From: Coprinus comatus | Taxonomy: Eukaryota > Basidiomycota > Agaricomycetes > Agaricales > Agaricaceae | Length of the DNA: 64,000 nt | Reading direction: 5' to 3' | NCBI GenBank assembly: GCA_034638255.1 | Contig: JAWPGT010000022.1 | Coordinates: 310,001 to 374,000 of the forward strand | Shown here: positions 1,763 through 55,647 of the stretch, piece after piece | Layout: every line of letters starts with the position of its first letter | Position numbering within the stretch: the first letter of the stretch is position 1 | Notes under the pieces: generated by a model | What the model was told of the DNA's origin: nothing | Database searches by the model: none | Seen by the model: the letters and a program-made list of their open reading frames with translations, nothing else | Translations under genes and position numbers: made by a program

Positions 1763-4700
1763 CTACTCTAAAACTATTACTTCATGTTCATCCACCAACT
1801 CCTTCTCTTTTGATAAGTACTTTACAATGTCGGGTGTAGATATATAGTCATTCCTACTCCACTCACCCAAGCACATAAGTGCCCGAGTGGTAGCAGGCGA
1901 AAGGCGGTTGCGTGTGTGTGGCAGGCATATATGGGCCTGGCTAAATATCCGTTCCACATCTACGGAGGCAGCTATGGCATTGTCTTTAGATTAGAATAGA
2001 AATTCAAATAATAGAAAATGTTTGTGGACTTACCAGGGACCGTTAAGAAATCTAATGCCATCCGAGACAGACAGGGATATAGATCCCGATGTTTATGCCA
2101 CCACCGAAGTGGGTCTTGGACAGTTGGATCCATTGGAGCAACAAGGTAGCAACTGAGCTCGTCATCAGTTGTTGTCTGTGTGTCGAAGAGGTGGGTGGCT
2201 GGTGAAGTGGTGCAGAGTTCTTCAAACTCGTCAAATACATTCAAATCTTTTGGTAATGTATTTGGCATATCCTAAAAAATGCAAATAATTGTATTAGTTA
2301 CAATAGTATAAGAGATAGAGAATGAAAAAAAAACTTACATTGTTGTTTGATCCCAGCCTGCTATCTGATTGATATTCAGCTCTCCATCTTTCCTGAACCA
2401 GCCTCTCAGCTTCTTCAATCCAATTCCTTTCCCAATGTAGTGTTTCGAAGTACTTTAATTTGTACTTTGGATTGAGAACTAGCTGAAATTAGTATATGTT
2501 AAAGTAAGAATAAAAAATGAAAGCTTACTCATTGCAATGCGGTAGAGGTCCGATTCATCAGTCTTTCTGTAGTACCGATTAAGAGTTTTCCGACCCATGG
2601 TGAGTGCAGCTTTGATAGCAGATGAGTAGTTTTGATAGTTTGGGTCCCGGCCACCAAGAATGTTGTCAATCCTGTCTATAACAGGAATGACAAGGCTGAC
2701 ATTAACATTGCTTTGTGAGAAGACATTCATTGCCAGCTTGAATACCTATAAATGAGAGACCAAAAGATATAAACACAAGTATTAAAAAGAGAACAAAAAA
2801 GCGCACCTTTAAAGCAGATACCAACTGCTCTACCAATTCCCATTCTTTCCATCCCAGCTTGTACTTTATAAGCTCAAAGTTCTTTCCGGGATTATCTTCT
2901 ATCCCATCATCAGTAAATCATGAGATGGCCACATGAAATTCTAGTGCAAATACTAGAAGATCATAAAGTGAGTTCCAACGTGTAGCTACATTGCGAGGTA
3001 TGATACGAATAGGGATTCCCATTCGTGTCAATATGGCCTCCCATTGTGGCTTGTGAATGGTTGGTGAGTTGATAATTGCCAAAGCAATCTTGCATAGCTA
3101 TTACATATTAGAATGAGGTTCGAATGAGAGAGTTGTGAGGAGTTATGGTGTGATGTGACACTGGGTCAGTAACGTGTCTTGGGTTTGAAGTCATCGACTT
3201 ACCTTGGTGACAGTAACTGAAGCTGGTTGAACCTGGGTATTCAACTCTTCTCGCTCCAGGGGAGGCAAATCCCTCCTTTCATCATACCATTCAGCTACAT
3301 TACCCTCCTCCTCTTCATCCAATAGAGCCTCGGATTCATCAAGTTCAGTTGTAAGTTCCTGATGTTCTTCTAATTGTGAGATTATTGTTTTGACTGTTAA
3401 ATTTAGAGTATGTGTGAAGCAATGACTACGTGTTACTTGACCTCCAAATGCTCCAACATTAGCTGCTAATGATGATACCATAGTATCATTATTACTAGCA
3501 TTATCGCAAGTAATTGCGAGTATCTATTGTAATGTGAGTTGATCATTAGATCCTGTTAGAGTAATAGTAAAATCTCACCTTATCTTCAATACCATAGTCT
3601 TTTAATACTACTTCGAAGGCTTTAGCAAGGTTTATGCCACTATGGGATTTTGCCAGATGGACGAAATCCAAGATATGGGAGAAGTGCTCTCCTTCTCTCT
3701 CACCATGAACACTAATGGCAACAAATGGTTGGTGGTTGGTTGATGTCCAGCAGTCAGTACCAAAGTTGAGTAATCCTGGGTAGTTCTAAAATCTCAGTAA
3801 GTACGTAAATTTTACTTTGAAGTTTGGATAGAAGATTAACCTGTAGATCTGTGGCTACCCGATTTTTAGCTCCCTCAAATGCATGGTAAACATCACGAGT
3901 AAGTGTTGTTGTTGATGGGATATAGCACTGAGGACGGCCAGTTTTGATAATATAGCGTAACCATCGATCTTGAACAATCCGAAAGGGTCTTTTATCTTCA
4001 GCAACCCAGCGAACATAGGCTGCACGAGATTTCATTTCGGTTAAGGGAATGGTTGAATAGAGCAGTTGTTTGTTTGTCCCCTTCTTCCATTTAAATGTAT
4101 CTGCTAATGTTGTATTATCTTCAGGTGACTTTGTAGGTAGCTTCAGACGAATTTCGGAGGCCGTTAAGCCCTGGGCGGCTTCGATTGCAGTTTTTCCCCA
4201 ACATCCTTCGGCATGCCGTTTCAGGTTCGTAGTTGATTTTGCATCTTGCATATCCAGATATCGTTTAACAACCCCCACACCCTTCGTAGTTTTCATCATA
4301 CAGCCTGATGACGCACACTTGAATTCATGCCATGTACGTGTTCCCAACTTCTTGGGAATTACTTCAGGTAGAAAGAATCCATATATATACGATGTCCATT
4401 TGGTTTGTAGAGCTTCTATAAGCATTGAAGGTGAGTATTAATTTGATCATCACAATTTAAAATAAATACTTACGAAGTTCCTTCTGCATAGATTCATCTT
4501 TGTCAACTCCTACTTCAATAAAAGACTTGGTACCAGGACTTCCTTCATCTTTGACACTCCCTTCATCATACCCACTTCGAGTCTCTACGTCCTTTAAGGT
4601 TATTTCCTCACTCAACCTTTGACTATCTCCATCATTTCCATTGTCTTGACTGTTTGAAACTATAGTAGTAGAGACTTGGGCACTGGTAGATATAGTTGGA

Positions 4701-4870
4701 TTTTGTTTCGGCTTTGCTTGTGCTGACTTGTGCTTCTTGGATACAGGTTGTATGGTTGAGGTCAGGGGGCCATACTCATCGGGACGGCGAGGTCTTTGTC
4801 TTTTCCGTCCACTTGAAGTCTCTGGCTGGTCTAGTGGCATTTCTGGTGGTATTAGATACTTCGAACTCAT
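1763..4870 (-). pseudogene. hAT transposase, spliced, probably inactive
   Basis: The gene runs leftward from an ATG at 4868-4870. The first exon (to about 4474) is low-complexity. Intron 1 spans about 4416-4473 with a GTAAGT donor; another lies near 2745-2802. Exon 2 holds a BED-type zinc finger (FKC-x4-C ... NLKRHAEGC). The central part (about 3191-3700) has the SHSG...CDNASNND and CFTHTLNL motifs of the RNase H-like transposase core. The C-terminal hAT dimerisation region (FSQAHICLP...LSPATTRALMCLGEW) is at 1763-1957. An in-frame TGA at about 2918-2920 (SerTerPhe, likely from CGA) suggests the copy is dead, although the exact exon joins are inferred. Family membership is secure from motifs plus the 8-bp TSD. 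Confidence 0.85.
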
Positions 4871-6278: not shown

Positions 6279-6793
6279 TTAGATGATGTCATCCATGATG
6301 GAGTCATCATTGGGAATGAGCTCAGGGAAGATGGTAAACAAGTCTTTCTTGGTGGTAGTGGTGCAGGCTGGTAGTTTGGGTTGGCTTGTAACATTACTTC
6401 CTTCCTTAGGAGGAATGTCCTCATTCTCAACTTCAGAGGTCTCAGCAAGGGGAGCCAGTGATGTTGGCTTCTGTGATGGGGTTGTAGTCTTCTCCAAATT
6501 CTTCTTCAAAATCATCTTGATGGAGTTCAGAAGTTTGGTATGAGCAACAGTGTGTTTGAACAGAGTTGGCATGGTGTTGATGATGTCTCTCACTATGAGG
6601 TCCTGTCAATTGTGAATGGCATATCTTTGGTAGTTCATGAATGCTAGAATGCATTGCCCTTTGATCAATTGATTATGGTGTTGGTTGCTGTTGTAGAAGT
6701 GTCCAATCTCCTTGTAGAATATCACTACCTGTCTTTTTAGTGGGGCAGAGTCTAGGGTTCTGGATATAGTGCTCCTCAACAATGGAGGCTGGG
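6279..6793 (-). pseudogene. C-terminal part of the extra ORF of gypsy H
   Basis: Minus-strand codons from about 6793 down to 6279 read LLRSTISRTLDSAPLKRQVV, then an FYKEIGHFYNSN region, an in-frame TGA at 6606-6608, and a tail with Lys/Glu-rich sequence ending PELIPNDD. I do not recognise the family. If gypsy A (6794-14819) and the inverted-repeat element (14836-15947) are removed with their duplicated target bases, the reading continues from the ORF at 15951-16189 without a stop, so I infer this is the downstream end of the post-integrase ORF described at 15953-16736. Confidence 0.45.
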
Positions 6794-7309
6794 TGTTAAG
6801 AACGGGGATTGGAGATGAGCTAGCGATGTCGGATTGAGGCTTCGGCTTCAATGTATGTGTTGTGCCCTCCCATACTGTGATTAGCCTCACTTGCAAGAGG
6901 ACCGAACGGTCGGAAAGAATGTCGGGAGGAATTACGGAGGAGAGTAGAGAATGAGAGCAGAGGCAAGATTGACTTAGAGTCAGAACAAGACAGAGACAGA
7001 GATGAGTGCGGATACTATGTTGATATCAGACTAAAGAATGTACAGGAGCGACTAGCGATTAAATACATTGTTTACCGATATCGGAATATAACATATCAAA
7101 ACATAAGATGACAGAACAATGGGCCGACATACTAAAAAGGATGATGCCGACTGAAAAGGGAAATAGCCGAAATAGGAAGTTGGGAATGGAACAAGCAAAT
7201 AATTGATGAAGGCCCAAGAGGTCGGCGACCGATAACAAGATTGACAGTCGGAACTGTCGGAAGGTCAGATGAGTTGTCGGAAGGTCGGTCAGTGGCACGG
7301 TACGTGACA
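6794..7309 (-). repeat. LTR A, 3' LTR of gypsy A
   Basis: 516 bp, TG...CA on the plus strand, preceded by the target duplication CTGGG. It is followed by a C-run that is the polypurine tract on the coding strand. I count about 26 CpG in it. Differences from the partner LTR at 14303 are mainly CG against TG or CA. Confidence 0.95.
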
Positions 7310-7322
7310 GTGCCCCCCCATT
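7310..7322 (-). promoter_or_regulatory. Polypurine tract of gypsy A
   Basis: On the coding (minus) strand the bases just before the 3' LTR read aatgggggggcac, with seven G at 7313-7319. This is the position and composition of the plus-strand primer for retroviral-type reverse transcription. Confidence 0.75.
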
Positions 7323-7508
7323 AAGGCCGAGCCCTTGAGGACTTAGAGTGGTGAACGTGGAAAGTTAAAATGACAGCGGGGAAGTGAAGTTGGAAGCATG
7401 TGGTCACCATGTGGTAAAAAGAAGTTGAGAAGTCGCCACGTGTTGGGCACGTGATCGATCGGCAGGGGACTTAAAAGGATTAAGTGGCAAGCTGTCAATG
7501 CATCCAAC

Positions 7509-8546
7509 ATGTCAAACCCCAACACCCTCGACACACTCTCTAAGCTCACTGAAAGTGAGCTCGCAAGCTTATTCGCGGCCTTGCAGGCCCAGCGGGCTGC
7601 TCAAGCGGCCACCTCAGCACCATCAGTGTCGGTACCGTCGGTACTGATGCCAGAAGTCCCCACCCCAGCCATCGACCGTGCACCGGTGGTGCCAAGTACC
7701 CCGGTGTTGACCCCCTTCCCAATTCCAACTCCGCCACCCATCACCCTGAGTATATCGGGGAGTTCAGTGCAGGTTTCGCAGGGAGATGGACAAGGAGGAG
7801 AGACCATCAAACGGAGGCGGGACTCAGATGGGAAGGTTTCGGGAACTGTGGTGAAGAAAAAGTCGAAGGCAGTGGTCGAGGATAGCGACGAGGATGTGGT
7901 GGTAGTGGATACCAGGCGAGTAGTAGTGGAAGTACCACATCGGCCCGAACTGACGGAACGTAGGAGGATTCGGTCCGTGACATGTGTTCGGTGTGCACAG
8001 AATGGTTGGGTGTGCGAAGAGGGTGCGGGGCCTGGGAGGCCATGTTGGAAATGTGTGGGTGACAAAAAGAAGTGTGTTGGGAGGAATGAGGACAAAGGAA
8101 AAGGAAAGGCAGAAGTGAAGAAGAGGCCGATGCCGAAGAAGGCCACATCTGTGGCAACCTCATCGTTGTCGTGGATGGTAGATTTTGAAGGGTCCGCCCA
8201 TCAATCGTCGGACATATTCCGACCTCCGCCAGTACCTGTGGCTAGTACCTCTCAGTTGGGCAACAACCGTCAACCAGCACGCGAGTCGGCCGTGATTGGC
8301 CAATTAAATTCGGCGGTGCGCAAGATGTCGGAAAACGTGGCGTTGCGGGACGAGCATGAGGAGAGTCGGCACATGGCATGGAGGAAGATGGCAAAGGAAC
8401 ATTGGGATTGGCAGAAAAGGGCACTGAGTGGAATGATGGGGGAATTGCAGGAGATTAATCGAAACCTGAGGGTGATGAGAACGGAGAGAGATGACGATGA
8501 CGAAGGTGAAGATGAGGAAGATGCAGAGGGTGAAGAGCAGGATTGA
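7509..8546 (+). CDS. Antisense accessory ORF with Zn2Cys6-type cysteine cluster
   Basis: A 345-codon ORF from ATG 7509 to TGA 8546, opposite in direction to the gag-pol of gypsy A and lying between the chromodomain end (8909) and the 3' LTR. Residues 35-85 are Pro/Ser-rich; 101-119 hold basic patches (KRRR, KKKSK) that could be nuclear signals. Cysteines 159, 162, 169, 179, 182 and 189 give C-x2-C-x6-C-x9-C-x2-C-x6-C, the spacing of GAL4-type fungal zinc clusters. Residues about 260-330 look helical and charged, and the C-terminus is acidic (DDDDEGEDEEDAEGEE). A role in DNA binding or transcription is inference from the motif. It is fully open although pol has four stops. It could alternatively be a captured host gene or a coincidental open frame, but composition and motif make it look real. 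Confidence 0.72.
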   Translation: MSNPNTLDTLSKLTESELASLFAALQAQRAAQAATSAPSVSVPSVLMPEVPTPAIDRAPVVPSTPVLTPFPIPTPPPITLSISGSSVQVSQGDGQGGETIKRRRDSDGKVSGTVVKKKSKAVVEDSDEDVVVVDTRRVVVEVPHRPELTERRRIRSVTCVRCAQNGWVCEEGAGPGRPCWKCVGDKKKCVGRNEDKGKGKAEVKKRPMPKKATSVATSSLSWMVDFEGSAHQSSDIFRPPPVPVASTSQLGNNRQPARESAVIGQLNSAVRKMSENVALRDEHEESRHMAWRKMAKEHWDWQKRALSGMMGELQEINRNLRVMRTERDDDDEGEDEEDAEGEEQD

Positions 8547-8908
8547 TATCCGGCGTCGGTAGTATACTTGTAGTTCATAGTGTAATTTTGTTTTACTACA
8601 AGTATTGGTGTCTTCTCTGCCCTGAAGTGTGAATGGAAGAAGCAAGAAAATTAGTGAGAAGTACCAGTAAAGTTGGCGACTTTCGGGATGAATCTGAATG
8701 GGTTACAAAATGAGAACCAACAGCCGAAATCGAACAACAGAATGAGAGTGCACGAAATGACTGATAGGTCGAAGGTAATAGCGCGAGAAGAGAGTACAAT
8801 ACGAGATTAGAGAGAGTAGTAAGATTGGAACACAATCGGCCAAGATAAACAGGAGTCGGAAGAAGTTGAAGTCGGGCCTAGCCCAGAATTGGCGATCAGA
8901 GACGATGA

Positions 8909-11900
8909 TTAAAGAGAAGGTAGAGGCCCCGGAAGGTGGGGATAGGAACGATGGAACGCATCAACCAATTCAACAGCATGCTCAAGTTTGTTCGCTGGCA
9001 ACCAAGAAAACTCCTCATCCGTATCCTCGTATCCCAACCAAGCAACTTTGTAGAGTAGTTTGCAGGCCCGACGTCGGTCGATCTTGGAATTGACGATTCG
9101 GGAGATTTCGTACTCAACGTCGCCTTCGATTTCAATTGGCGGTGGTGGAGGATCTGAACGGTTCAGAAAGGGGTTAGCAGTAAACAGTTCAAGCATGGAT
9201 ACATGGAAGACAGGGTGTACAGAATGGAAATTCAGAGGTAATTGAAGTGTATAAGAAAGTGTACCAGGTTGTGCAATGATCTTGTAAGGACCCAAATACT
9301 TTTTGGCAAATTTCTTTGCAGGACGAGTAGTTTGGAAGAATTGAGCCTTAACAAATGCTTGATCACCGACTTTGAAGCTCGGCGACGGAAGTCGCTTTGC
9401 GTCGGCAGAAGCCTGATACCTTTTCTGAGCGGAAGCAATCTCTAACTTGAGAGTTGCATGCAACTCATCAAGGTTAGTCGTGAATTCACGAGCTCGAGCG
9501 GACACCAGGTCGCGTTCGGGGTAAACTGTAATATTAGGATGGTAACCCTTGTTAGCAAAGAATGGTGATACATTAGTGGAAGCATTCGGCGCATTGTTAT
9601 ACGCGAACTTGGCAAGCGGAAGAAGTTCTGACCAGTCGGTCTGCTGATAGTTACAGTAGATCCGAATGTACTGTTCAAGAGTTTGGTTAGTTCGTTCAGT
9701 TTGACCGTCACCTTTGGGATGATAACCCAAAGTGAAGTGAAGTCGCATGTTCAACGCTTCACCAAGTGATCGGAAGAAATGAGAAACGAACTCTGAACCA
9801 CAATCGGAAGTGACATGGGACAGTACACCATGCTTCAAGAACACATGGATAACAAATAGTCAGGCTAAGTCAGCAGAAGTAATTGTATCATGACAAGGAA
9901 TAAAAACAGCTTGCTTCATGAATTGGTCAACAACAATGAGAATCACATTGAAGCCAGAAGAAGTGGGAAGCTTCTCAATGAAGTCCATTGAGATAGAATC
10001 CCAAGGGCAAGAAGGAATTGGAAGCAGCTTAAGCAAGCCATAGGGCTGATGATGCTGCAGTTTAGATTGCATACAGGTTACACAACTCTTGATAAAGAGT
10101 TTGACAGTTTCCCAAATACCAGGCCATGTATAGTCTCGATGAATAAGCTCAAGAGTTTTATTCTGACTGTAATGACTAGCAAGGGGATGGTTGTGATGAT
10201 ATTGCATAACCCAAACCTGAAGGTTCTCAGTGTTGGGGATGTAGATCCTGCTGTCAAGGCAAAGGAATCCATGATTGTCCCTAGACCACTGACCTGTCGG
10301 TTCGACGAGGTGTTTGGTGATCTCGGCATTGGAAGAAAGAGAAGAGAGTATATCAGAATGAAGCTTAGAAATGTCAGCAATAACAGAAGCACGAAGAGCA
10401 GGGGTAAGAAGATACATAGCACGAACAGAGGCCGCAAGTTGGTCTTGAGTGAAGACCGGTCGGAAGTTGTGAGGATTAACGGCTGCATAGCTGACTCCCC
10501 CCTCCTTAGGGTAGACGTCCCACCGACAAGTAAGAGCATCAGGCTTAGTGCTGAGGCACCCAGGTCAGAAGTGAATAACAAGATTAAAACCAGAGAGGTA
10601 CTCAGACCAGCGAGCTTGCCGACGAGTAAGAACCTTAGTAGTAGAAAAGTATTCCAAATTTTTGTGATCGGTGACAACATCAATCGGAAGCGAAGCTCCT
10701 TCAAGATAGTGTCACCAGATTCGGAAAGCTTCGAAGATGGCAAGAAGTTCTTTATCGTGGGTGTCATAGTTGAGTTCGGGAGCGGAAAAGGTACGGGAGT
10801 GGAAAGCAACAGGGTGGATGTCACCGTCATTGGTAAGTAAAGAAATAATAGCAGCAAGAGCGTAGTCGGAAGTGTCGGTCTCGACAATGATTTGAGCATC
10901 AGGGACCCAATGAGTAAGCACAGGAGCACAAGTAAATGCTTTTTTGAGAGCATTGAAAGCATCCCAAGCTTCGTCGTCAAACAACCAAGCTACACCCTTT
11001 CGAGTGAGCCTTGTCAGAGGGACAACAATGTCGGAATATCCATAGATAAAGCACTGATAGAAGTTTGCAAAACCCAAGAAAGATTGAATGTCCTTTACCT
11101 TTTTCAGTTCGGGCCAGTCTTGAATAATTTGAACCTTGTCCTGAGCCATAGTAAGACCTCCAGAGCCGAGAATGTAGCCAAGATATTCCACCGATTTGGA
11201 ATGAAATTCACATTTGTCAGCACAAGCATAAAGACCATGCTTGCGCAGACATTTGAGAACTTCGTGGACATGTTTTTTATGAGAAGCAATGTCGTCAGAA
11301 TAAATGAGAATGTTGTCAAGATAGACGACTACACAGACATCGAGCATATCCGAAAAGATGTCATTCATAAAGCATTGAAAAGCAGCGGGAGCATTGGTAA
11401 GCCCGAATGGCATGACAAGCCATTCAAACGAACCATAGCGAGTTCGGAAAGCCGTTTTCCATTCATTGCCTTTGGCGATACGAACGAGATGATAAGCATG
11501 ACAGAGGTCAATCTTGGTGTAGATATGAGCCTTTCGGGGAGAGTCTAAGAGGTCGGAAATGAGTGGAAGTGGGTAACGGTCCTTTTTAGAGATGCGATTA
11601 AGACCACGGAAATCAACACAGAGTCGGAGGGATCCGTCCTTCTTTTTTACGAAAAGAACAGGTGCGGCATGAGAAGAAGAAGATTGTCGAATGAAACCAG
11701 AAGTTAAGTTCTCGTCGATGAACTCACGTAAGGCCTCGAGCTCGATTTGCAACAGCAAATAGAGCACACCGATAGGTGGTGAGGTGCCTTCCTCAAGATC
11801 AATCTTAAGGTCGTAAGGTCGGTGAGGTGGTAACGTGTCGGCTTTGGCTTTGCTGAACACGTCGGCGAATTCATGATATTCGGAAGGGATGGCAGAAAGG

Positions 11901-12784
11901 TCAGGGGGTTCTGGTGAAGCAGATTTGAGAGCGGCAGCGGCAGCTCAAACGTTAGACTTGAGATCCAATGTGAACTGTTGCGAACCAGGCAGTCGGCGAG
12001 CACAATCGAAAGCAATTGCATTCACGAAACTGATGTGTGGCTTGATCGGTGATGCAGAGGCAGAGCACCCTACAGGAGTGACAGAAGAAACAAGATTGTC
12101 AGAAGACGAGTCGGAAGGATTGACATCGGAAACGTTGGAAAGAGATGGAGTGACAGGGGCATCGGCCACCGTCGGTTTTCGCAGCGAAGCAGAGAGAGCA
12201 AGATCAGTGTTAGTCATAGATCGGAAAGATATACTGCCCGAGACCCAGTCAATCAACGGATTGTAGCAGGTGAGCCAGTTGTAACCAAGAACCATAGCAC
12301 ACGAAGAGTCAAGCCGAGTCACATAGAAATCAATAGCCATAGATTCACCAGAGGGAAAAGTAATAGGTAAGGACAGAGATTGGTTAATATAAGAGTTAGA
12401 AGAGCCATCGAATAATCGTAATTCAACTGGAGGACAAGAACTAGTGGGTATAGCGAACTCGCAAACGAATTTGGTGTCAATGAAGCAATGAGTAGAACCA
12501 CTATCAATAAGAGCAACAATTGGCGATTCGGAACAAGAAGCAAAACAAGGAGCGGAAGAAGACAAAGGAATATGAAGTGAATCGGGGTTAGAAAGAGCGG
12601 AAGCATTCAAACGAACAAAGGGAATAGTGCAGGGAGGAAGAACGCGATCCTCGGTCTGCACACCTGAAGGATCGCAGATCAGTTTCCCGAACTCTCGGTT
12701 TGAGAGGACGAGGTCGTTTCCGAAGTCGTAGTAGCTGCCCGAGCCTTGGCTTTCTCCGCTTCCGAAGCTGCTTTCTTCCGACAA
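8909..12784 (-). pseudogene. Gypsy A pol: protease, RT, RNase H, integrase, chromodomain
   Basis: All parts lie in one minus-strand frame with no indel over 3.9 kb. Order: protease (LIDSGST, about residue 94), reverse transcriptase (VDFRGLNR, MPFGLTNAP, YLDN at 11312-11323), RNase H ([20 protein letters not shown]), integrase zinc region, integrase core (DCGSEFVSHF, HPKGDGQTERTNQ), a GPYKII-type C-terminal region and a chromodomain (YEISRIVNSK...YKVAWLGYEDTDEEFSWLP). Four in-frame TGA codons occur at 11945-11947, 10712-10714, 10565-10567 and 9860-9862; each sits where Arg CGA is expected. The second catalytic Asp of YLDD is Asn, explained by CpG-to-CpA. The frame is -1 relative to gag. The copy cannot make a functional polyprotein. 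Confidence 0.95.
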
Positions 12785-14259
12785 ACGCTAACACTGTGAC
12801 CGGCGGTGCCGCAGAAGAGGCAGAGGTTGTTAGCAATCCGATGTTGACGTTCTTCGGCGGTGAGCTTGCCATTAGAGTCAAGTTTATTGGAGAGATCGGT
12901 TGCAGGTTTAGGAGTAGTGGAAGTAGTAGCAGTGGCTTTCGGAGCAGGGGTCGCCAATTTGGTTTTATTGGATGACTTGGACTTGGAAGACGATTGACCC
13001 GATGTGGAAGTAGAAGTGGAAGAATTGGAAGTGGAAGACTGAGTAGTCGCAGCGGGAGTATTCGGCGGGTTGCGACTTGCAACACGCTTCTTTTTGCGTT
13101 GACGTTCCCAATAGCGTTGATCGATATGAATGCAAGTGTCACGCATATCGGCAAGAGAGGTTGGTTTACCCTGGGGTAGTGCATAGAGAGTGTCTTTGAG
13201 TCGGTCGGGAAGACCTTTGTAATAGGTGCGGCAGAGAAGATAATCAGGGTATTGGAGGACCCCGGCCAAACGGTTGAACTTGACATTGTAGGTCGCGATT
13301 GGACCGCCTGAAGCCATAGTGAGGTTGTCCAATTCCTCCGCAGCTTCAGCGACTAAGTCGGAACAGCCGAAGTTAGCGGTGAGTTCTAGGACGAATAGAT
13401 CCCAGTCGGTGTACCAGGGGACTAACATCCAGTCATGAGTATTCTTGAGCACAGTTTGAAACCATTGATGGGCAGAACCCGAGAGATAGGAGAGAGCGAA
13501 CCCGACCCGACTGACGTCGGAGGCCAGGCTCTGATGGTGTTGGAAATAGAGACGGCATTGGAAAAGGAATTCCGACAGCTTCGTTGGTTTAGAACCATCA
13601 AAGACTGCGGGTTCACGAATATGTGCGTGATCCAACGTCCGAACAGGAGGATTAGGGGCAGGAGTAGCCGAGGCATGGGCCTGGGCGGTCAAGGCACGAC
13701 TAAGTGTGCCGAGACCATGCAAGAATGCTTGTAGTTGATCCTCCACATTATCCCGACCATGCTGTTGGGCCAAGGGTGGATCGGGATTGTTCGGGTGTTC
13801 GTCATTATCATCTGCATTATTGTCATCATCATCATTGCCACCGCCACCACCGCCACCATCACCACCATCACCACCGTCAGGTGGGTTTGGGGGGTTTTGC
13901 GGAACTCCGTTAATAGGATCGGCTGGAAAATGGGGATTTTCGGGATGATTTTCGGGATCAGAATCCCTTTCGTTCTCGTCCATCGGAACTTCAGGACGAA
14001 AACCACCGGGAGGGTTCGGAGTTGGGTTGTTAGCTCGGTGATGACCAAAGTTAAATGCAGGTAGACCTCCGCGACCACGAATATTGGTCGCAGAGTTGGA
14101 TCGAGAAAGATTCGGTGAACGATAACCAGAGGGAGTAGGGGTAAGAGGGGAACCAGTATCAAAAATAGACCTAGCAGCAGGAGTAACCTGAACACGAGCA
14201 GGTTCTTCGGCCTGAACATGAGCAGACCGGGAAGGAACAGTAGTAGTAATTCCAGACAT
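12679..14259 (-). CDS. Gypsy A Gag (capsid and nucleocapsid)
   Basis: Starting at the ATG 14257-14259, about 44 nt inside the 5' LTR, the ORF has 526 codons and no internal stop; two further upstream codons are open but the first is GTG. The N-terminal 190 residues are disordered (Pro, Gly and Asp/Asn rich, with polyGly). The middle part (EPAVFDGSKPTKLSEFLFQC, then WFQTVL...WDLFVLELTANFG) is a retrotransposon gag capsid domain. A CCHC zinc knuckle, CLFCGTAGHSVSVC, lies near residue 482. The end overlaps the start of pol by about 105 nt in another frame, so pol was probably made by -1 frameshifting. Confidence 0.92.
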   Translation of the reverse strand: MSGITTTVPSRSAHVQAEEPARVQVTPAARSIFDTGSPLTPTPSGYRSPNLSRSNSATNIRGRGGLPAFNFGHHRANNPTPNPPGGFRPEVPMDENERDSDPENHPENPHFPADPINGVPQNPPNPPDGGDGGDGGGGGGGNDDDDNNADDNDEHPNNPDPPLAQQHGRDNVEDQLQAFLHGLGTLSRALTAQAHASATPAPNPPVRTLDHAHIREPAVFDGSKPTKLSEFLFQCRLYFQHHQSLASDVSRVGFALSYLSGSAHQWFQTVLKNTHDWMLVPWYTDWDLFVLELTANFGCSDLVAEAAEELDNLTMASGGPIATYNVKFNRLAGVLQYPDYLLCRTYYKGLPDRLKDTLYALPQGKPTSLADMRDTCIHIDQRYWERQRKKKRVASRNPPNTPAATTQSSTSNSSTSTSTSGQSSSKSKSSNKTKLATPAPKATATTSTTPKPATDLSNKLDSNGKLTAEERQHRIANNLCLFCGTAGHSVSVCRKKAASEAEKAKARAATTTSETTSSSQTESSGN

Positions 14260-14302: not shown

Positions 14303-14819
14303 TGTTAAGAACGGGGATCGGAGATGAGCTAGCGATGTCAGATTGAGGCTTCGGCTTCAACGTATGTGTTGCACCCTTCCGATACTGCGATTAGCCTCAC
14401 TTGCAAGAGGACCGAACGGTCGGAAAGAATGTCAGGAGGAATTATGGAGGAGAGTAGAGAATGAGAGCAGAGGCAAGATTGACTTAGAGTCGGAACAAGA
14501 CAGAGACAGAGATGAGTGCGGATACTATGTTGATATCAGACTAAAGAATGTACAGGAGCGACTAGCGATTAAATACATTGTTTACCGATATCGGAATATA
14601 ACATATCAAAACATAAGATGACAGAACAATGGGCCGACATACTAAAAAGGATGATGCCGACTGAAAAGGGAAATAGCCGAAATAGGAAGTTGGGAATGGA
14701 ACAAGCAAATAATTGATGAAGGCCCAAGAGGTCGGCAACCGATAACAAGATTGACAGTCGGAACTGTCGGAAGGTCGGATGAGTTGTCGGAAGGTTGGTC
14801 AGTGGCACGGTACGTGACA
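14303..14819 (-). repeat. LTR A, 5' LTR of gypsy A
   Basis: 517 bp, same termini as 6794-7309, followed by the target duplication CTGGG at 14820-14824. I count about 27 CpG. On the coding strand it holds a TATA-like box near 14568-14575 and a predicted transcription start at 14542. Confidence 0.95.
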
Positions 14820-14835
14820 CTGGGATAGTACTTGA

Positions 14836-18619: not shown

Positions 18620-18984
18620 TGTAAGGGTGACTCACATCAGTGACGAACGGCCCAACAACTAGCAAGGAATCCAAAGTTATATTTGATCAGAAACATATTA
18701 CAGAACAGATACAACATACCTAGTGAGGAATCCAAAGAGAAAGAGTTGGGGATTCACTCACACAGGCTACACACAATATATACTACTATGCAAACAGAGA
18801 TGCCAGCTATTGTCCAGAGGGATGTCATAACATGGACAATGGGAACAATGGGGGACAAGTCATGTGAGGGGGCAAGTGGTGAAAGTGTGAAGTCGGGAGG
18901 TGTTCCGATGGAAGTTGGAATGTCAGAGGATCGGTCGGTAGTCGGTGTGTTGGTGTAAGGGTCGGTGAGGAAGGTCCCCTTACA
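18620..18984 (-). repeat. LTR C, left LTR of gypsy C copy 1
   Basis: 365 bp, TGTAAGGG...CCCTTACA. It is followed at 18985 by the polypurine tract of the minus-strand element (C-run at about 18990-18996). It differs at many CpG sites from the right LTR. Confidence 0.95.
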
Positions 18985-19975
18985 TCTACCCCCCCTTCTA
19001 GGGTGCAGCGTCTTGATGTACCTGTGAACTGAGTGCAAGGTCGGAAAGGAATGGAGTTGAAGGCTGTGGAATGGATAAGTCGAGGTGCAGTGAGGTTCTT
19101 GCGATAGAACTCGGCAATCTTTTTGGGGGTGTGGATGTCAGCTGCGAGTTCCCAAGAGTTCTTTTCCATGCTGAAGTCTTGCCACTTGATCAGAAATCTG
19201 AGTTTACCTCGTTGCACTTTACTGTCCAATATTTCTTCTACTTCCCATTCCTCTTCATTGTCCACCAGTATTGGCATCAGTATTTTTGTTGGCTTCTGAC
19301 CAGGGATCAGGTCTTCGGGAGCTGGGGTGAGTTTAGCCACATTGAACACCGGGTGCAGGCGAGACAACCTTCGGGGAAGCTTGAGCTGATATGCCCCAGG
19401 CCCGACCTTGCAGTCGATGGTGAAAGGACCTAACCATGTGTGCTTGAACTTCTTTGAGGGCCAACTCGTTGCAATGTCTGATGCATCGAGGTAAACCATG
19501 TTACCTGTCTTGAGCTCAGGGGCGGGGGTCTGACATCAATTGTAGTACTTCACCATATTATCCTTTGCCTTCACCAGTGCCGACTTTGCTTCTTCTAGTG
19601 CTGACTCCATCTGGGTTTTGAACTCATTGACCGTTTTGAGTCGGGAGGGGTGTTGTTGGGGTTCGAAGCCCATGCGAGGGTCACAGCCAGTGTCTAACAC
19701 AAAGGGCGATTGGTGGGTCGCAGTGTGAACATGGTTGTTGTGTTGGAATTCGGCGAGCGGGAGAAGGTCATACCAATTGTTCTGTCTTTGGTTAACAAAG
19801 ACTCAGATGTACTGGTCAAGTTCTTGGTTAACTTGTTTGGTTTGACCATCGGCTTGTGGGTGCCAAGCTGTAGTCACAGTGACCTTGATGCCTAAGAGTT
19901 GGTACAACTTGTGGGTGAATTCTGACACGAACTGCGGGCCTCGGTCAGAGACAACACATTGAGGTAGGCTGTGGA
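18985..19975 (-). pseudogene. Gypsy C copy 1 pol: integrase end and chromodomain
   Basis: Minus-strand frame with the end of the integrase core (HPQADGQTKQVNQELDQYI near 19800-19860), the DMVYLDASDI linker, the LGPFTIDCKVGPGAY and PVFNVAKL region, and a chromodomain (EWEVEEILDSKVQRGKLRFL, 19200-19280) ending near 19000. In-frame stops occur near 19535 and 19790. It differs from copy 2 at many CpG-type sites, whereas the part on the other side of copia F is nearly identical to copy 2. Confidence 0.88.
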
Positions 19976-37302: not shown

Positions 37303-37650
37303 CACGAGTGTGAAGTGGTCTAGGGAGTGCTTCAGTTGTGGAGCTGGAGGGAGGGTTCTTGGGGGAATGGAGTGTTTGTTCATTCTGGCGTCCTTTCTTT
37401 TTCTTTCTTTTCTTTTCTGCTTCAAAGAGGTGTCTTTTCCTTTCTTCTTCTATCTCTATTTGGTTAGGCGTTAAACTAATCTCTCTCTCGAGTGTAGCGT
37501 GTGGTGCACTTTAATCCAGTTAGCCAGACTGTTTCTGTATGTATGATATTTGTAGGTACTATGTATTTACATCTGCGACCCCTTTGGGGTCGCTAGCGGA
37601 CTGTGTACGTGCACCGCGAATATAAATTCTGATGTCAAAAAAAAAAAAAA
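37303..37650 (+). other. LINE 3' untranslated region and poly(A)
   Basis: About 330 bp between the ORF2 stop and the 14-A tail contain a T/C-rich stretch (37392-37460) and no gene. This is the expected 3' UTR of the LINE. Confidence 0.85.
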
Positions 37651-40600
37651 GAAGCGTTCTAGAAGGTCCCTGGTGTATTTCTCTTGGATGAGAGAGATAG
37701 AATGATGAGGAAGGTCTTGTTCAACCTTGACAGCCAGTAGCCAGGATGTTGGACCAAGGTCACGAAGTTTGAAGTGAGCTGAGAGTTCCTTGACTGTGTC
37801 ATCCATGGCCTTGTCATCCTTCGAAGCAAGAGTAATGTCATCAATAAACACAGGAACAATGACCTTGACTGGACCTTTGGAGTAGAGATAAATAGAACTG
37901 TCAGATTGGAGTCTGGTATAACCAAGAGAGATGAAAATCGAGTGTAGCTTCTTGTTCCACTGCCTGGCAGCTTGTTTGAGGCCATAGAGCGACTTCCTGA
38001 GCCTAAAAACCATGTTGGGAGCGCCCTGGTGATATCCTTCAGGTTGCTTCATGTAAATCTCTTCCTCCAGGTCTCCATAGGTGAAAGCAGATGAAATATC
38101 CAAAGAGCGCAGTTTGTAGCCCTCTTTAGCAGCCAGAGCAACAATGAGCCTAAGAGATGCAGGCCGAAAAGTAGGAGCAAAAACCTCAGTATAATCACAA
38201 CCAGGCCTCTGTGCATATCCCTTGGCCACAATGCGAGCTTTGTAGTGCTCTATGGAGCCATCTGGGTTCTCCTTCACCTTGTAGACCCATCCAGACTTGA
38301 TAGCCTTCTGTCCTGAAGGCAAAGGAATGAGTTCCCATGTCCCATTAGCCTCCAGGATCCCAAACTCCTTATCCATGGCTTCTTTCCAATCTTCGGATGC
38401 ACAAGACTCCATAGCAGCCTTGAATGAACCAGGTTCACCACCAGTAACAGCTCCTGCAAACTCTACCACCCAAAAATCTTCATCATTCATGTAGAGAGCC
38501 AACTCTTCAAGCTCATCATCATCTTCTTCATCATCATTCCCATTGTTCTGAGCTACTGGAACTGGTTCAACTGGTAGTCTAGCTATAGGACGACGTTTTA
38601 GCTGTTCTTTGGCATCCCACCAGTTGTAGGGAGCTGTTCTGATGCGAGTACCTCGTCTTCTAGCTGGTGGTTCAGCTGAGGGAGGTTGCTGGTGGACAGG
38701 AGTGGTTGGAGGAGGTAAAGAAGAGGATGGAGGCATTGGAGGTGTAGATGGAGGTGATTGCTTTGGTGAGAGTGTTGGTGATGGAGATGGAGATGGAACA
38801 GGTTCTTGAAGAGGAATAGGAGCCACAGGAGGTAAAGCGACTGCAGGGAGAGCAGGAGGAACAATTGGAGCTGCAGGAGCGACTACAGGATGTGATACAC
38901 TACCCCCCTCATCTTCAGAAGCTGAAACATCGTCAGGAGGAGGAATAGAAGAGCTAGAGGGCAAAGAAAGCGAAGTAGAGGGAGAAGATGGTGTTTCAGA
39001 CAAGCCAAAGTCAGGAATAGCATCCATTTTCGCTTTTGAGAGCCCAGGGAACCACCTCTCATCAAACTGAGCAGTCTGAGAGATGATAACCTTCCTTGTA
39101 GTGGGGTTGTAGAACTTCCAGCCCTTGTAGCCAGTGGGATATCCCAGAAAAACGCATTTTTCCATGTGAGGCTCCAGAGATTTCCTTTTATCCTTCTGAA
39201 TATAGACATAGGCAGTGCAGCCCCATACTCTAAGGTGAGAAACGTCGGGTTTTCGCTTATAGAAGGCCTCATAAGGTGTAGTGTTGGGTAGAGGTGAGGT
39301 GGGAAGGAAATTCCAAACATGAACCATGGCAGCCAAGCATTCACCCCAGAAAGATGGAGGTAAACCTGACTCTGAGAGCATTGTGGTGATTCTCTCACCC
39401 ATAGTGCGATTGGAGCGCTCTGCTAGGCCATTCTGCTGTGGTCTATTGCGAGTAGAATGTCTCCTTTCAATGCCACACTGAGTTGTGAAGGAAATGAATG
39501 CTTTAGACATGTATTCACCCCCTTTATCATCCAGTAGAGCCTTGATCTTGGTCCCCAGCTGGTTCTCAGCCCATGATTTGTATGCTTTGAATGCTTCAAA
39601 GGCTTCTGACTTGGCCTTGAGCAGGTACACAGCCCGAAAACGCATAGAATTGTCAATAAACGTCACCCAGTACTTGTAGCCTTGAGCTGTAGCTGTAGGA
39701 AGCGGTCCATGAAGATCTGAGTGCACTAGATCAAGTGGGGAGTGAGTATGGTGTGTAGAAGGAGGGAATGAGGCTAAATGCATCTTCCCAGCGAGGCAGG
39801 GCTCACAAATCGCGTCAGGGAGCGTTCCAGAGACTAGGGAAAGGCCAGTAACAAGTTCCTGACTGATTAGCTTCTTCAAATCAGCAAGATTATGGTGTAT
39901 AAGGCGTCTGTGCCACAGGGAAAGGTCAAGAGGGAGTGTAGAGGCCGAAAATGCGGTCTCTGAAGCGACCACAGTGCCATTGAGCAAGGCATTGTTGGAT
40001 TTAGTGATGGTAGCAGTAAATAGAGTCTTCCTATCCTTCCTGAAGGCCAGAGAGTGTGAAGATATGTTGATATTAAAGCCCTTATGGCGAGTAAGGTACA
40101 AACAAGCAAGGAGATTGTTTCTTAACGCAGGAATATGTAAAACTCTAGAAAACTCGACCACTCTCCCCTTCTTTCCTCTCAACACTGCCTGAAACATCAC
40201 TGAACCCATTCCAACTGCAAATACAACTGAATTGTCTGCTAAGCGGACAGGAATGCGAGTTTGGGAGTAGGTCTTGAACCAGTGAAGGTGTGGGGTCATA
40301 TGAGAAGTGGCCCCAGTGTCTGCAAGCCAATGAAAGTCAGCATCCAGCTGAAGAGGTGATGAAGAAGAGGAAGAAGAGAGACAACTTGCATTGCCAGCAA
40401 ATTCCTTGATGCAGGCGGCCGATTCAGCGATGGAGGTGGTGGGAGAAGGTGTAGAAGCTTCTGAGGCCTTGTTGGCCTGAGTTTGACGCGAATTGGAACG
40501 CTTTTGAGCGTTTTCTACAGCCTTCTTCTGAGCCTTCTCATACTGCCAGCATTTGGCCATAACATGACCAGACCTGCTACAAAAATCGCATTTCTGAGAC

Positions 40601-41060
40601 GAGGAGGAGGGCTGGGACCTTGCGGAAAAAGCGGAGGCATGGGAGGGAAGGTCTACTGCCCTTCTACGACGTTGAATTTCCTCACTGATGAATGCCTGGT
40701 GGATGGTGGCCTTGTCAAGTTTGTCAAGGAGTAGGAGGTGAGAGGTGAAGGAGGAGTAATCCTCAGATGGGAGAGCTCTAATAAGAGCCATGGAAGCGAG
40801 TTCTTCATCCAGGGAGGCCAGGGAGAAGCCCTGTGGCCGAAGATCTTTGATTTTCTTCATACATTCCTCCACCCTGTTGATCAAAGACTGCAGAGATTCA
40901 TCATCCCCCTTCCTAATGCTAAAAAGGTCGTCATAGCTGTTGAACCTTGCCCCAGGCCTCTTCTGCAAATGCACCCCCTCCAAACTCTTCCACATCTTAC
41001 ATGGATCATCCTGAATCCCATTGAAATGAATCCTCTGCTCTGGCTCAACCATGAGGAACA
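37651..41060 (-). CDS. Copia E gag-pol, open frame, truncated at both ends
   Basis: One uninterrupted minus-strand frame of over 1,100 codons. It enters at 41060 in the middle of a copia Gag (VEPEQRIHFNGIQDD, HLQKRPGARFNSYD), then CCHC CDFCSRSGHVMAKC, protease WLADTGATSHMT, GAG-pre-integrase HRRLIHHNL...CEPCLAGKM, integrase (VHSDLHGPLP, DDKGGEYMS, NGLAERSNRT), a Pro/Ser-rich linker and reverse transcriptase (SGWVYKVKENPDG, LDISSAFTYG, FIDDI). The LINE ends it at DLLERF; the continuation is at 31118-31198. The Gag N-terminus is cut by LTR E and RNase H is missing. No nonsense change is seen, unlike its neighbours. Confidence 0.93.
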
Positions 41061-41355
41061 TGTCAGGATTGCTCCAGGCAGTCCCAATGTCAGGAGTTGA
41101 TGGAGTTGTAGCTTGTGATCGCTTTTCTGATCATGTGGTGTTACTGTGTGATGTCACAGCTTGTAGAAGCGTCCTGCAGACACTTGGTGACCTTCTAGTC
41201 TCATACCATTGTCTGCAGGTGAGTAGTTATAGTATAACATCATGTTCTAGTCTCATACCATTGTCTGCAGTGTAACTCATTCATTTCTTAATCAATCAAC
41301 TTTGTTCCTTCGTTAATCTATGTGTCCTGTCATGCTCTACGTTCCTGCGCTTACA
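41061..41355 (-). repeat. LTR E copy, reverse, at an element junction
   Basis: 295 bp, TGTCAGG...CTTACA. Flanks GAACA and CCATT do not match. It joins the truncated Gag of copia E to the truncated Gag of copia F copy 2. It is inverted relative to the LTR E at 30823 on the other side of copia E, so the two cannot be the LTR pair of one normal element. Confidence 0.88.
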
Positions 41356-49733: not shown

Positions 49734-50098
49734 TGTAAGGGGACCTTCCTCACCGACCCTTACACCGACACACCGACTACTGACTGATCCTCCGATGTTC
49801 CAACTTCCATCAGAACACCTCCCGACTTCACACTTTCACCACTTGCCCCCTCACATGACTTGTCCCCCATTGTTCCCATTGTCCATGTTATGACATCCCT
49901 CTGGACAATAGCTGGCATCTCTGTTTGCATAGTAGTATATATTGTGTGTAGCCTGTGTGAGTGAATCCCCAACTCTTTCTCTTTGGATTCCTCACTAGGT
50001 ATGTTGTATCTGCTCTGTAATATGTTTCCGATCAAATATAACTTTGGATTCCTTGCTAGTTGTCGGGCTGCTTGTTGCCAACGTGAGTCGCCCTTACA
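49734..50098 (+). repeat. LTR C, 5' LTR of gypsy C copy 2
   Basis: 365 bp. A TATA-like tatatatt lies near 49936-49943, and AACTCTTTCT at 49971-49980 is the predicted mRNA 5' end. Confidence 0.95.
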
Positions 50099-54200: not shown

Positions 54201-55282
54201 TCGGTATTGAAACAAGTTCATTTCCTGCCGACCCACATGACTTGCACTGCCGAAGGTGTTGCCCGACTCTTCCTCCACAACATCTGGAAGCTCCACGGCC
54301 TACCTCAACGTGTTGTCTCCGACCAAGGCCTGCAGTTTGTGTCGGAATTCACCCGCAAGTTGTACCGACTCTTAGGCATCAAGGTCGCTGCAACTACAGC
54401 TTGGCACCCGCAAGCCGATGGTCAAACCGAACAAGTTAACCAAGAACTCGACCAGTACATCTGAGTCTTTGTTAACCAAAGACAGAACGATTGGTATGAC
54501 CTTCTCCCACTTGCCGAGTTCCAACACAACAATCATGTTCATGCTGCGACCCACCAATTGCCCTTTGTGTTAGACACTGGCCGCGACCCTCGCATGGGCT
54601 TCGAACCCCGACAACACCCCTCCTGACTTGAAACGGTCAATGAGTTCAAAACCCGGATGGAGTCGGCACTAGAAGAAGCAAAGTCGGCACTGGTGAAGGC
54701 AAAGGACGATATGGCAAAGTACTATGATCAACGTCAGACCCCTGCCCCCGAGCTCAAGATGGGTGACATGGTTTACCTTGACGCATCCGACATCGCAACG
54801 AGTCAGCCCTCAAAGAAGTTTGAGCACACACGGTTAGGTCCTTTCGCCATTGACCGCAAGGTCGGGCCTAGGGCATATCGGCTCAAGCTTCCCCGAAGGT
54901 TGTCTCACCTGCACCTGGTGTTCAATGTGGTTAAACTCACTCCAGCTCCCGAAGACCTGATCCCTGGTTGGAAGCCAACAAAAATACCAATGCCAATACT
55001 GGTGGACAATGAAGAGGAATGGGAAGTAGAAGAAATATTGGACAGTAAAGTGCAACAAGGTAAACTCAGATTTCTGATCAAGTGGCAAGACTTCAGCATG
55101 GAAGAGAACTCTTGGGAACTTGCAGCCAACATCCACGCCCCCGAAAAAATCACCAAGTTCTATCGCAAGAATCCCACTGCACCTCGACTTATCCGTTCCA
55201 CGGCCTTCAACTCCATTCCTTTCCGATCTCGCACTCAGTTCACAGGTACATTGGGACGCTGCACCCTAGAAGGGGGGGTAGA
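51241..55282 (+). pseudogene. Gypsy C copy 2 pol: protease to chromodomain
   Basis: One frame without indels from about 51402: protease (ALVDSGATGIFIDRDF), reverse transcriptase (KKKDGSLRL, FGMTNSPATF, YLND at 52815-52826), RNase H ([15 protein letters not shown]), integrase (HHCC; SIDFVIELPES; SDQGLQFVSEF; HPQADGQTEQVNQ), and a chromodomain (EWEVEEILDSKVQQGKLRFL). TGA stops occur at 52871-52873, 53082-53084, 53613-53615 and 54462-54464 where Arg is expected, and TAG at about 53298. The first catalytic Asp is Asn (52821-52823). A 4-bp CAGT deletion near 51385 relative to copy 1 puts gag and pol in different frames. A purine tract (55268-55282) precedes the LTR. Confidence 0.93.
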
Positions 55283-55647
55283 TGTAAGGGGACCTTCCTC
55301 ACCGACCCTTACACCGACACACCGACTACCGACCGACCCTCCGATGTTCCGACTTCCATTGGAACACCTCCTGACTTCACACTTTCACAACTTGCCCCCT
55401 CATGTGACTCATCCCCCATTGTTCCCATTGTCCATGTTACAACATTCCTCTGGACAATAGCTGGCGTCTCTGTTTGTATAGTAGTATATATTGTGTGTAG
55501 CCTGTGCGAGTGAATCCCCAACTCTTTCTCTTTGGATTCCTTGCTAGGTATGTTGTATCTGCTCTGTAATATGTTTCTGATCAAATATAACTTTGGATTC
55601 CTCGCTAGTTGTCGGGCCGTTTGTCGCCGACGTGAGTCGCCCTTACA
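55283..55647 (+). repeat. LTR C, 3' LTR of gypsy C copy 2
   Basis: 365 bp, clearly diverged from the 5' LTR of the same copy (many CG against TG or CA differences). The 5' LTR of this copy is instead almost identical to 30474-30822 of copy 1. Confidence 0.95.

Follow-up and report, generated by a model that had tools for sequence, protein, structure and literature searches.

Introduction

Antisense accessory genes are already known in Gypsy retrotransposons, from the published summaries of brtn, Retand TRP28 and Grande gene23. The gene brtn is the antisense gene of the Boty-like Gypsy elements of Botrytis cinerea and Sclerotinia (Zhao et al. 2011, Virology 417:248; summarised in PMC7264820, and cited in PMC8365987 and PMC4227169), while plant Retand Gypsy elements have antisense open reading frames (ORFs) with a TRP28 domain, PF04195 (PMC11963269). 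According to the same summaries, the function of the Gypsy antisense accessory genes of plants and Botrytis is unsettled (PMC7264820, PMC11963269). Here we describe an antisense ORF (aORF) with a Zn2Cys6-type cysteine cluster, carried by a Gypsy element of the fungus Coprinus comatus. The element lies in a stretch of 64,000 nucleotides from contig JAWPGT010000022.1, which is here called the window.

The locus resembles brtn in its setting, each being an additional antisense gene of a Gypsy-type element from a fungus, placed between pol and the 3' long terminal repeat (LTR) (PMC7264820). It resembles the TRP28 ORFs, for which DNA binding is predicted and a regulatory role has been proposed (PMC11963269), and also gene23 (2013), which PMC7264820 and PMC11963269 summarise as an accessory gene in antisense orientation that has a promoter of its own and a product located in the nucleus. 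It differs from brtn, by description only, in a zinc cluster, allele exchange, an antisense intron and LTR motif arrays, features that the account in PMC7264820 does not mention for brtn. TRP28 is a different protein family (no TRP28 is among the Pfam rows shown for the aORF proteins) and its host is a plant, not a fungus; for gene23 the difference is likewise one of description, no zinc cluster being described in the summaries of PMC7264820 and PMC11963269. No precedent for the zinc-cluster type, the predicted antisense intron or the allele exchange was found in the literature searched, which comprised open papers and is part of the literature only. Our preferred reading, which we consider probable, is that the element carries an antisense Zn2Cys6-type gene for an autoregulated regulator of the element itself, and that this gene is swapped between copies as a cassette.

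Conservation of the antisense gene

The Gypsy element is on the minus strand of the window, with its gag-pol split into several frames; its family is called family A here, and its sister clade is called clade B. It is flanked on both sides by a 5-bp target site duplication, CTGGG (6789-6793, partner at 14820-14824). Alignment of the LTR pair places the 3' LTR (sense TGTCACG...CTTAACA) at 6794-7309 and the 5' LTR at 14303-14819, both on the minus strand, and they are identical at 503 of 517 positions. As the original prediction stated, an ORF of 345 codons (7509-8546, plus strand, from ATG to stop in the ORF listing and the copy comparison) runs against gag-pol inside the duplications. The ORF listing and a search for integrase (INT) place the C-terminal part of pol, convergent with the aORF, at 8909-9748 (minus strand; an integrase end and chromodomain, named by eye). 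Pol ends at 8909 and the aORF lies between this end and the 3' LTR; as no part of it is shared with pol, its substitutions can be interpreted without interference.

A search of the same genome with the window protein gave 33 matches, of which 31 were grouped into 24 copies or fragments, a count that omits two family A matches with E>1. In 18 of the 24 a family INT is nearby on the opposite strand, and the arrangement is antisense in all 18 places where both were found. The INT list, for which 139 of 234 candidates were scored, has 20 family INT copies (at least 78% identity), and 18 of these carry an A-type gene. Of the other two, C85 has the B-type gene, and C116 lacks an aORF match; downstream of the C116 INT, at a distance of about 560 bp, there is a further Gypsy INT match. 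The frame is open from its ATG over 343-362 codons in seven of the 24 copies; in C2, one of the seven, the end is frame-shifted.

Fungi have many Zn2Cys6 genes, and there are 17 places above the Zn_clus cut-off in this genome. These facts would suit a host gene that the element had captured, or that lies inside it by chance, as would three of the 24 places (C61:8396, C5:29738 and C97:2498), where no other element part was seen within 1.5-kb flanks. This explanation is nevertheless highly improbable. Not only are 18 of the 24 homologues beside an INT, but three more (C14, and C13 twice) adjoin the LTR and leader of family A; the last three match only in part, stops occur in two of these, and anything further down the match list has E>1. 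The 17 Zn_clus places are all distinct from the aORF copies, the sister Gypsy clade carries a gene at the same place, and no intact stand-alone homologue was found in the genome.

The aORF is under purifying selection. Over eight distinct alleles, a set from which the near-duplicates L017, L018, L021 and L025 were left out, omega was 0.141 under the GY model and 0.143 under the MG model. The GY log likelihood was -5629.1, compared with -5972.7 at omega=1; fixing omega at 1 costs about 344 (GY) or 368 (MG) log units, giving twice the log likelihood difference as about 687 and 736, respectively. Pairwise dN/dS (the ratio of nonsynonymous to synonymous divergence) is approximately 0.07-0.32 between diverged alleles where dS could be computed, and is scattered over approximately 0.16-1.26 in near-identical family A pairs (dS <0.06), which have few changes. 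Differences per codon at the three codon positions are 0.25, 0.23 and 0.51. Insertions and deletions tell the same story, their lengths being multiples of three in 80 of 80 pairwise cases at 7509-8490, compared with 13 of 73 at 8547-8760, in a count over six copies whose pairs share history and from which the last 56 bases of the ORF are excluded.

The original prediction had drawn attention to the ORF being open although pol is broken. This turns out to be weak evidence: from the 13 LTR substitutions, the simulated chance that a substitution has broken the aORF since insertion is only about 32%, so that the open frame of the window copy says little by itself. The same simulation, which leaves the frame open with a chance of about 68%, is what can be said for an open frame that is there by chance and without function. 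Such a frame would not account for an omega of 0.141, for in-frame insertions and deletions, or for frames that stay intact even where dS between alleles is saturated or nearly so, and the combination of omega, indel phase and deep conservation rules it out, leaving it a negligible probability. Other copies of the family might have lacked the ORF or changed neutrally, an outcome that the prediction had named as counting against it. This is not what was found, since the antisense position is kept and selection is purifying. We conclude that the aORF is a protein-coding gene, that its antisense position is conserved, and that it is under purifying selection.

A divergent cassette in a near-uniform element

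The main novelty beyond the original prediction is that the gene forms a deeply divergent and apparently exchanged cassette in a near-uniform element. The copies C42 and C50 are 98.0% identical in INT DNA (dS 0.08), yet only 57% identical in the aORF, where dS is saturated. For pairs across the two main allele groups, identity is 55.7-60.3% in the aORF and 91-98% in INT. Sliding identity places the approximate extent of the cassette at 7420-8750 (plus strand), comprising the aORF with about 90 bp upstream and about 200 bp downstream: it is approximately 84-100% to either side, in the LTR and towards pol, but for C22 against C50 it is only 36-76% from about 7420 to 8700. The gag-pol of the same two copies is 95.1 and 97.1% identical in two aligned blocks (window positions of about 10027-13787), a comparison that for C50 stops short of the last 500 bp of gag and the 5' LTR.

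The aORF is itself mosaic. C22 and C42 are 86-99% identical up to about 8000 and 64-85% thereafter, while C50 and C76 are 55-88% identical up to about 8100 and 82-96% thereafter. Tree tests, with groups that were picked after seeing the data, show the conflict directly: the backbone (8 rows) rejects the groups {C22,C42,C61} and {C22,C42}, each with p 0.0005 (C92, which has a long branch, was dropped from the second backbone run), and the aORF (9 rows) rejects the backbone group {C42,C50,C2} with p 2e-64. There is therefore a cassette-like conflict between the aORF and the backbone. In INT, omega is 0.36 and differences are mostly transitions (kappa approximately 28, compared with 3.1 in the aORF), which reflects decay after insertion.

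It looks as if old aORF alleles have been exchanged among recently active elements. The divergence could instead come from local hypermutation, or from gene conversion homogenising the rest of the element. Homogenisation and exchange leave much the same pattern, and donor and recipient are not distinguishable, but hypermutation would not preserve the reading frame. The tree conflict and the mosaics that share opposite halves (the N-terminal half in C22 and C42, the C-terminal half in C50 and C76) speak against both processes, and we consider it unlikely that either one, rather than exchange of a cassette, explains the pattern. The likelihoods given in this paper do not sum to one: whether the cassette was exchanged is a separate question from that of function, and the repressor reading discussed below overlaps the preferred one.

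A more far-reaching possibility, which we put forward as speculative, is that the cassette acts as an immunity region. Many old Zn2Cys6 alleles would be swapped, whole or in halves, into one spreading backbone. Selection for rarity, directed against silencing by the host or against rival copies, would keep them diverse, and between clades the protein and the CGG arrays of the LTR would diverge together.

Both C50 and C42 also contain insertions that look copia-like by eye (L069, L070), approximately 98% identical to each other over 1.5 kb.

The zinc-cluster protein

The cluster, at residues 159-189 (7983-8075, plus strand; from the sequence and profile), has exactly the spacing originally described, C-x2-C-x6-C-x9-C-x2-C-x6-C. 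This fits the Zn2Cys6 pattern C-x2-C-x6-C-x5-12-C-x2-C-x6-8-C with a loop of x9; the clade B loop is x14 and so is outside the range of 5-12. One of the seven full-length alleles, C76, has its sixth cysteine replaced by tyrosine. PF00172 (Zn_clus) is listed at E<=10 for 20 of 21 zinc regions of both clades, with a best E of 5.5e-4. A profile search of the PDB to E 10 gave only four matches, these being LEU3 (two), C27B12.11c and Pho7, the best being LEU3 with E 0.026. Foldseek with the zinc-region model gave nine matches, none of them significant (best E 0.41), all of them Zn2Cys6 domains, going by their titles or by what is otherwise known of these proteins. The cluster is therefore likely, judging from its sequence, to belong to the Zn2Cys6 (GAL4-type) regulators. 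The original suggestion that the element encodes a gene of this type can now be stated more fully, in that the gene is a conserved coding gene whose zinc cluster resembles Zn2Cys6 domains, as judged from its profile and from weak matches of fold.

The protein is rich in basic blocks and ends in an acidic tail. AlphaFold2 (AF2) predicts a long C-terminal helix at residues 256-330 (8274-8498, plus strand), followed by the acidic tail up to 8543. In the full-length AF2 model only the helices are usable; the 10-residue mean of the predicted local distance difference test (pLDDT) is 81-95 over residues 261-320 of this helix and 71 over 321-330. On the basis of this model, the helix is likely to be a dimerising coiled coil.

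The antisense gene of clade B

Clade B consists of Gypsy elements with INT about 71-77% identical to that of the window, and has an antisense gene at the same place, which is absent from the matches listed by the search with the window protein. A search with its own gene gave ten copies as grouped (five weak matches, with E from 0.007 to 0.89, are omitted), all ten being antisense to INT; in six, the matched part contains no stop. When the profiles of the two clades are compared by hhalign, the zinc cluster is the only region to align (41 columns, probability 92%, E 6e-7), and a KRRR(D/E)SDG block is common to most sequences of both clades. Pooled pN/pS is 0.36 in exon 1 and 0.52 in exon 2; the copies are close and decaying, and selection is less clear here.

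Near the end of the clade B frame is a 48-bp intron-like stretch, GTAAGT...CTGAC...TAG, identical in five of six copies and with one change in the sixth. Removal of this predicted spliceosomal intron gives a frame of 393 amino acids (C114, C1), ending as in family A with a helix-like segment and an acidic tail; in C90 the second exon is frame-shifted. The intron would presumably be spliced, as its sequence suggests. It argues for antisense transcription, because retrotransposition would not remove an intron that is antisense to the genomic RNA.

It is worth recording that one locus (G000:C85:22933-25011) has an INT 81% identical to that of the window, yet a B-type antisense gene alongside, perhaps through exchange between the clades.

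The leader and candidate target motifs

Between the 3' LTR and the aORF is a leader of about 200 bp (7310-7508, plus strand), which from its sequence is a putative promoter. It contains two CACGTG motifs (7437-7442 and 7448-7453, plus strand) and a TATA-like TTAAAAGG (7471-7478, plus strand), 31-38 nt before the ATG. In clade B the box TATAAAAA, a clear TATA box, is found 50 nt before the ATG in all four copies examined; three of these have two TCCGGACA upstream of the box and the fourth has one. It had originally been suggested that the gene is driven from the side of the 3' LTR. That side still appears right, but the leader is a more likely promoter than the LTR itself. An HTLV antisense promoter located inside the 3' LTR is mentioned in PMC7264820.

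In the 110 nt before the ATG, compared over ten family A rows that include four near-duplicates, GTCGG was found in 9/10, a pair of GTCGG 15 nt apart in 7/10, CACGTG in 9/10 and TTAAA in 9/10. The 3' LTR of the window copy has 10 GTCGG and 21 CGG over both strands. Its most enriched 5-mer is GTCGG (10 against 0.7 expected), and in the clade B LTR the corresponding motifs are CGGAA (16 against 2.3) and CCGGA (12 against 1.5); none of these counts was reached in any of 500 dinucleotide shuffles. Among ten controls taken from the window, of which six were repeats or LTRs and four were 600-bp pieces, the highest z was 4.1, compared with 7.0 for both LTRs. The enrichment, control and flank counts used 6794-7310, which is one base longer than the LTR. 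The motifs separate the clades: CCGGA is absent in all eight A LTRs counted and GTCGG in all three B LTRs counted (a fourth B LTR was not delimitable, and C92 was left out). Within the LTR, a scan for motif pairs identified the everted CCG-N4-CGG pair CCGATATCGG (7075-7084) as a candidate binding site; the spacing of CGG pairs in the LTRs, scanned without a shuffle control, revealed no consistent pattern other than direct pairs 9 apart and everted pairs occurring singly. We regard the link between the aORF protein and the CGG motifs of the LTR as suggestive only.

A first pairwise count had indicated very low divergence of motif flanks (10/1834 compared with 1834/23488), but the signal disappeared under a column-wise control with other CpG flanks. 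In the family A LTRs, 43 of 73 CpG columns are variable, compared with 65 of 356 non-CpG columns outside CpG flanks, a pattern that resembles decay by CpG deamination.

Proposed mechanism

The mechanism we propose is as follows. The third gene of the element would have a promoter to itself, in the interval between 3' LTR and ORF, and its transcription would run opposite to that of gag-pol. Its product would be a dimeric and presumably nuclear protein, comprising an N-terminal helix, basic blocks, the zinc cluster, the dimerising C-terminal helix and the acidic tail. This protein may bind sites that contain CGG, both within the LTR and ahead of the TATA box of its own gene, and would thereby control how its element is transcribed. 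Its most likely mode of action would be that of an autoregulated activator or anti-silencing factor. The gene would pass between co-expressed elements by recombination, probably by template switching, and the outcome of such exchange would be old divergent alleles in one recently spread backbone.

Several observations weigh against this proposal. A large protein set, searched with the single protein, with a seven-sequence alignment and with the clade B frame, and also viral contigs, gave no homologue outside the same genome, in collections that apparently hold few fungi. The full window protein has no Pfam match at E<=1. The AF2 model of the zinc region is poor (pLDDT 52), although it does place helices directly after Cys1 and Cys4, and the basic residues of the aORF cluster are in its second half, whereas GAL4-type clusters have them in the first half. 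Two of the six repeat or LTR controls are mildly enriched in GTCGG, TCGG is also raised in family A gag-pol (16/kb), and the leader of the window copy has no GTCGG in the 110 nt before its ATG. Finally, conservation around the TCGG sites of the LTR does not exceed that around other CpG sites, with 1 of 44 flanking columns variable for the former and 1 of 28 for the latter.

The last result would also be expected if the gene is real but encodes a nucleic-acid-binding accessory protein with no role in transcription, acting for example in nuclear import of the preintegration complex, target-site choice or RNA handling. This is the main rival. It explains the coding evidence equally well, it suits the abundance of basic blocks, and it is in keeping with Zn_clus scores below the Pfam gathering cut-off of 21 bits (11.3 for the window region and 10.7 for clade B). 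On the other hand, the profile and fold neighbours are DNA-binding Zn2Cys6 regulators, and the LTRs show a strong excess of CGG motifs, with flanks that differ by clade. We consider an accessory role of this kind rather unlikely.

A second rival differs from the preferred reading in sign only. The protein would be a repressor of its own element, acting like HBZ in copy-number control or exclusion of other copies, and exchange of alleles would alter which copy represses which. The CGG-type motifs directly upstream of the antisense TATA boxes in most copies examined would fit autorepression, and many old alleles in one backbone resemble variation of an immunity type. However, the LTRs are approximately 84-100% identical between copies with very different alleles, and therefore the target specificity is probably unchanged by the allele; and by analogy the acidic tail fits activation better. 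Repression thus seems to us slightly less likely still than an accessory role, and an activating or anti-silencing regulator remains our preferred reading.

Other features of the element and the window

In the sense strand of the element, a run of seven G (7313-7319, minus strand) adjoins the 3' LTR, and resembles a polypurine tract. Just past the aORF stop is an inverted repeat with an 11-bp stem (8564-8605), recognised by sequence and folding. The hairpin is kept in seven family A copies, and the clade B copy C114 has one at the same place with a similar loop and a changed stem. Folding compared with shuffles gave z of -2.5 and -4.6 for the two strands in family A, and -4.1 in clade B. It may perhaps function in 3'-end formation between the convergent genes.

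The window has two further Gypsy copies, at 18825-19880 (minus strand) and 54390-55460 (plus strand), with INT about 31-33% identical; beside these two there is no antisense ORF of at least 220 amino acids. Repeats near them (18620-18968 and 49734-50098) are mildly GTCGG-rich, which may point to a shared host factor. Another element of the window may be young, as it has an intact gag-pol ORF of 1164 amino acids that appears copia-like by eye (37567-41061, minus strand). Two ORFs at 3754-4870 (minus strand) resemble, by eye only, pieces of a BED-finger or hAT-type transposase.

Comparison with known systems

The recognisable regulator domain, the predicted antisense intron of the sister clade, the candidate promoter and the candidate sites together make the idea that retrotransposons have a transcription regulator of their own directly testable. 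The apparent swapping of alleles this deeply diverged between elements that are uniform elsewhere suggests that a retrotransposon family contains either an arms race or a system of recognition.

HBZ of HTLV-1 is a spliced antisense gene for a DNA-binding regulator of its own LTR, and is a bZIP protein, not a zinc cluster; the likeness to the aORF is one of general description and not of sequence. LEU3 has the identical cysteine spacing in the profile alignment, as well as a helix after the cluster, and is among the profile and fold neighbours. The aORF differs from LEU3 and GAL4-type proteins in its weak scores, in having its basic loop in the second half of the cluster, and in being encoded by a retrotransposon.

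By analogy, the closest counterparts in the proposed working would be the VANC proteins of Arabidopsis VANDAL elements, which are DNA transposons. VANC is an element-encoded, sequence-specific DNA-binding anti-silencing protein, and its short motifs are dense in the cognate element and different between related elements (PMC5735166). As described there, it belongs to another protein family, its motifs are in noncoding tandem repeats, and anti-silencing has been shown for VANC, whereas for the aORF it is proposed. The motif arrays of the two clades may be VANC-like: CCGGA is absent from the A LTRs counted and GTCGG from the B LTRs counted, but the motifs are also raised in coding parts, and mildly in other LTRs.
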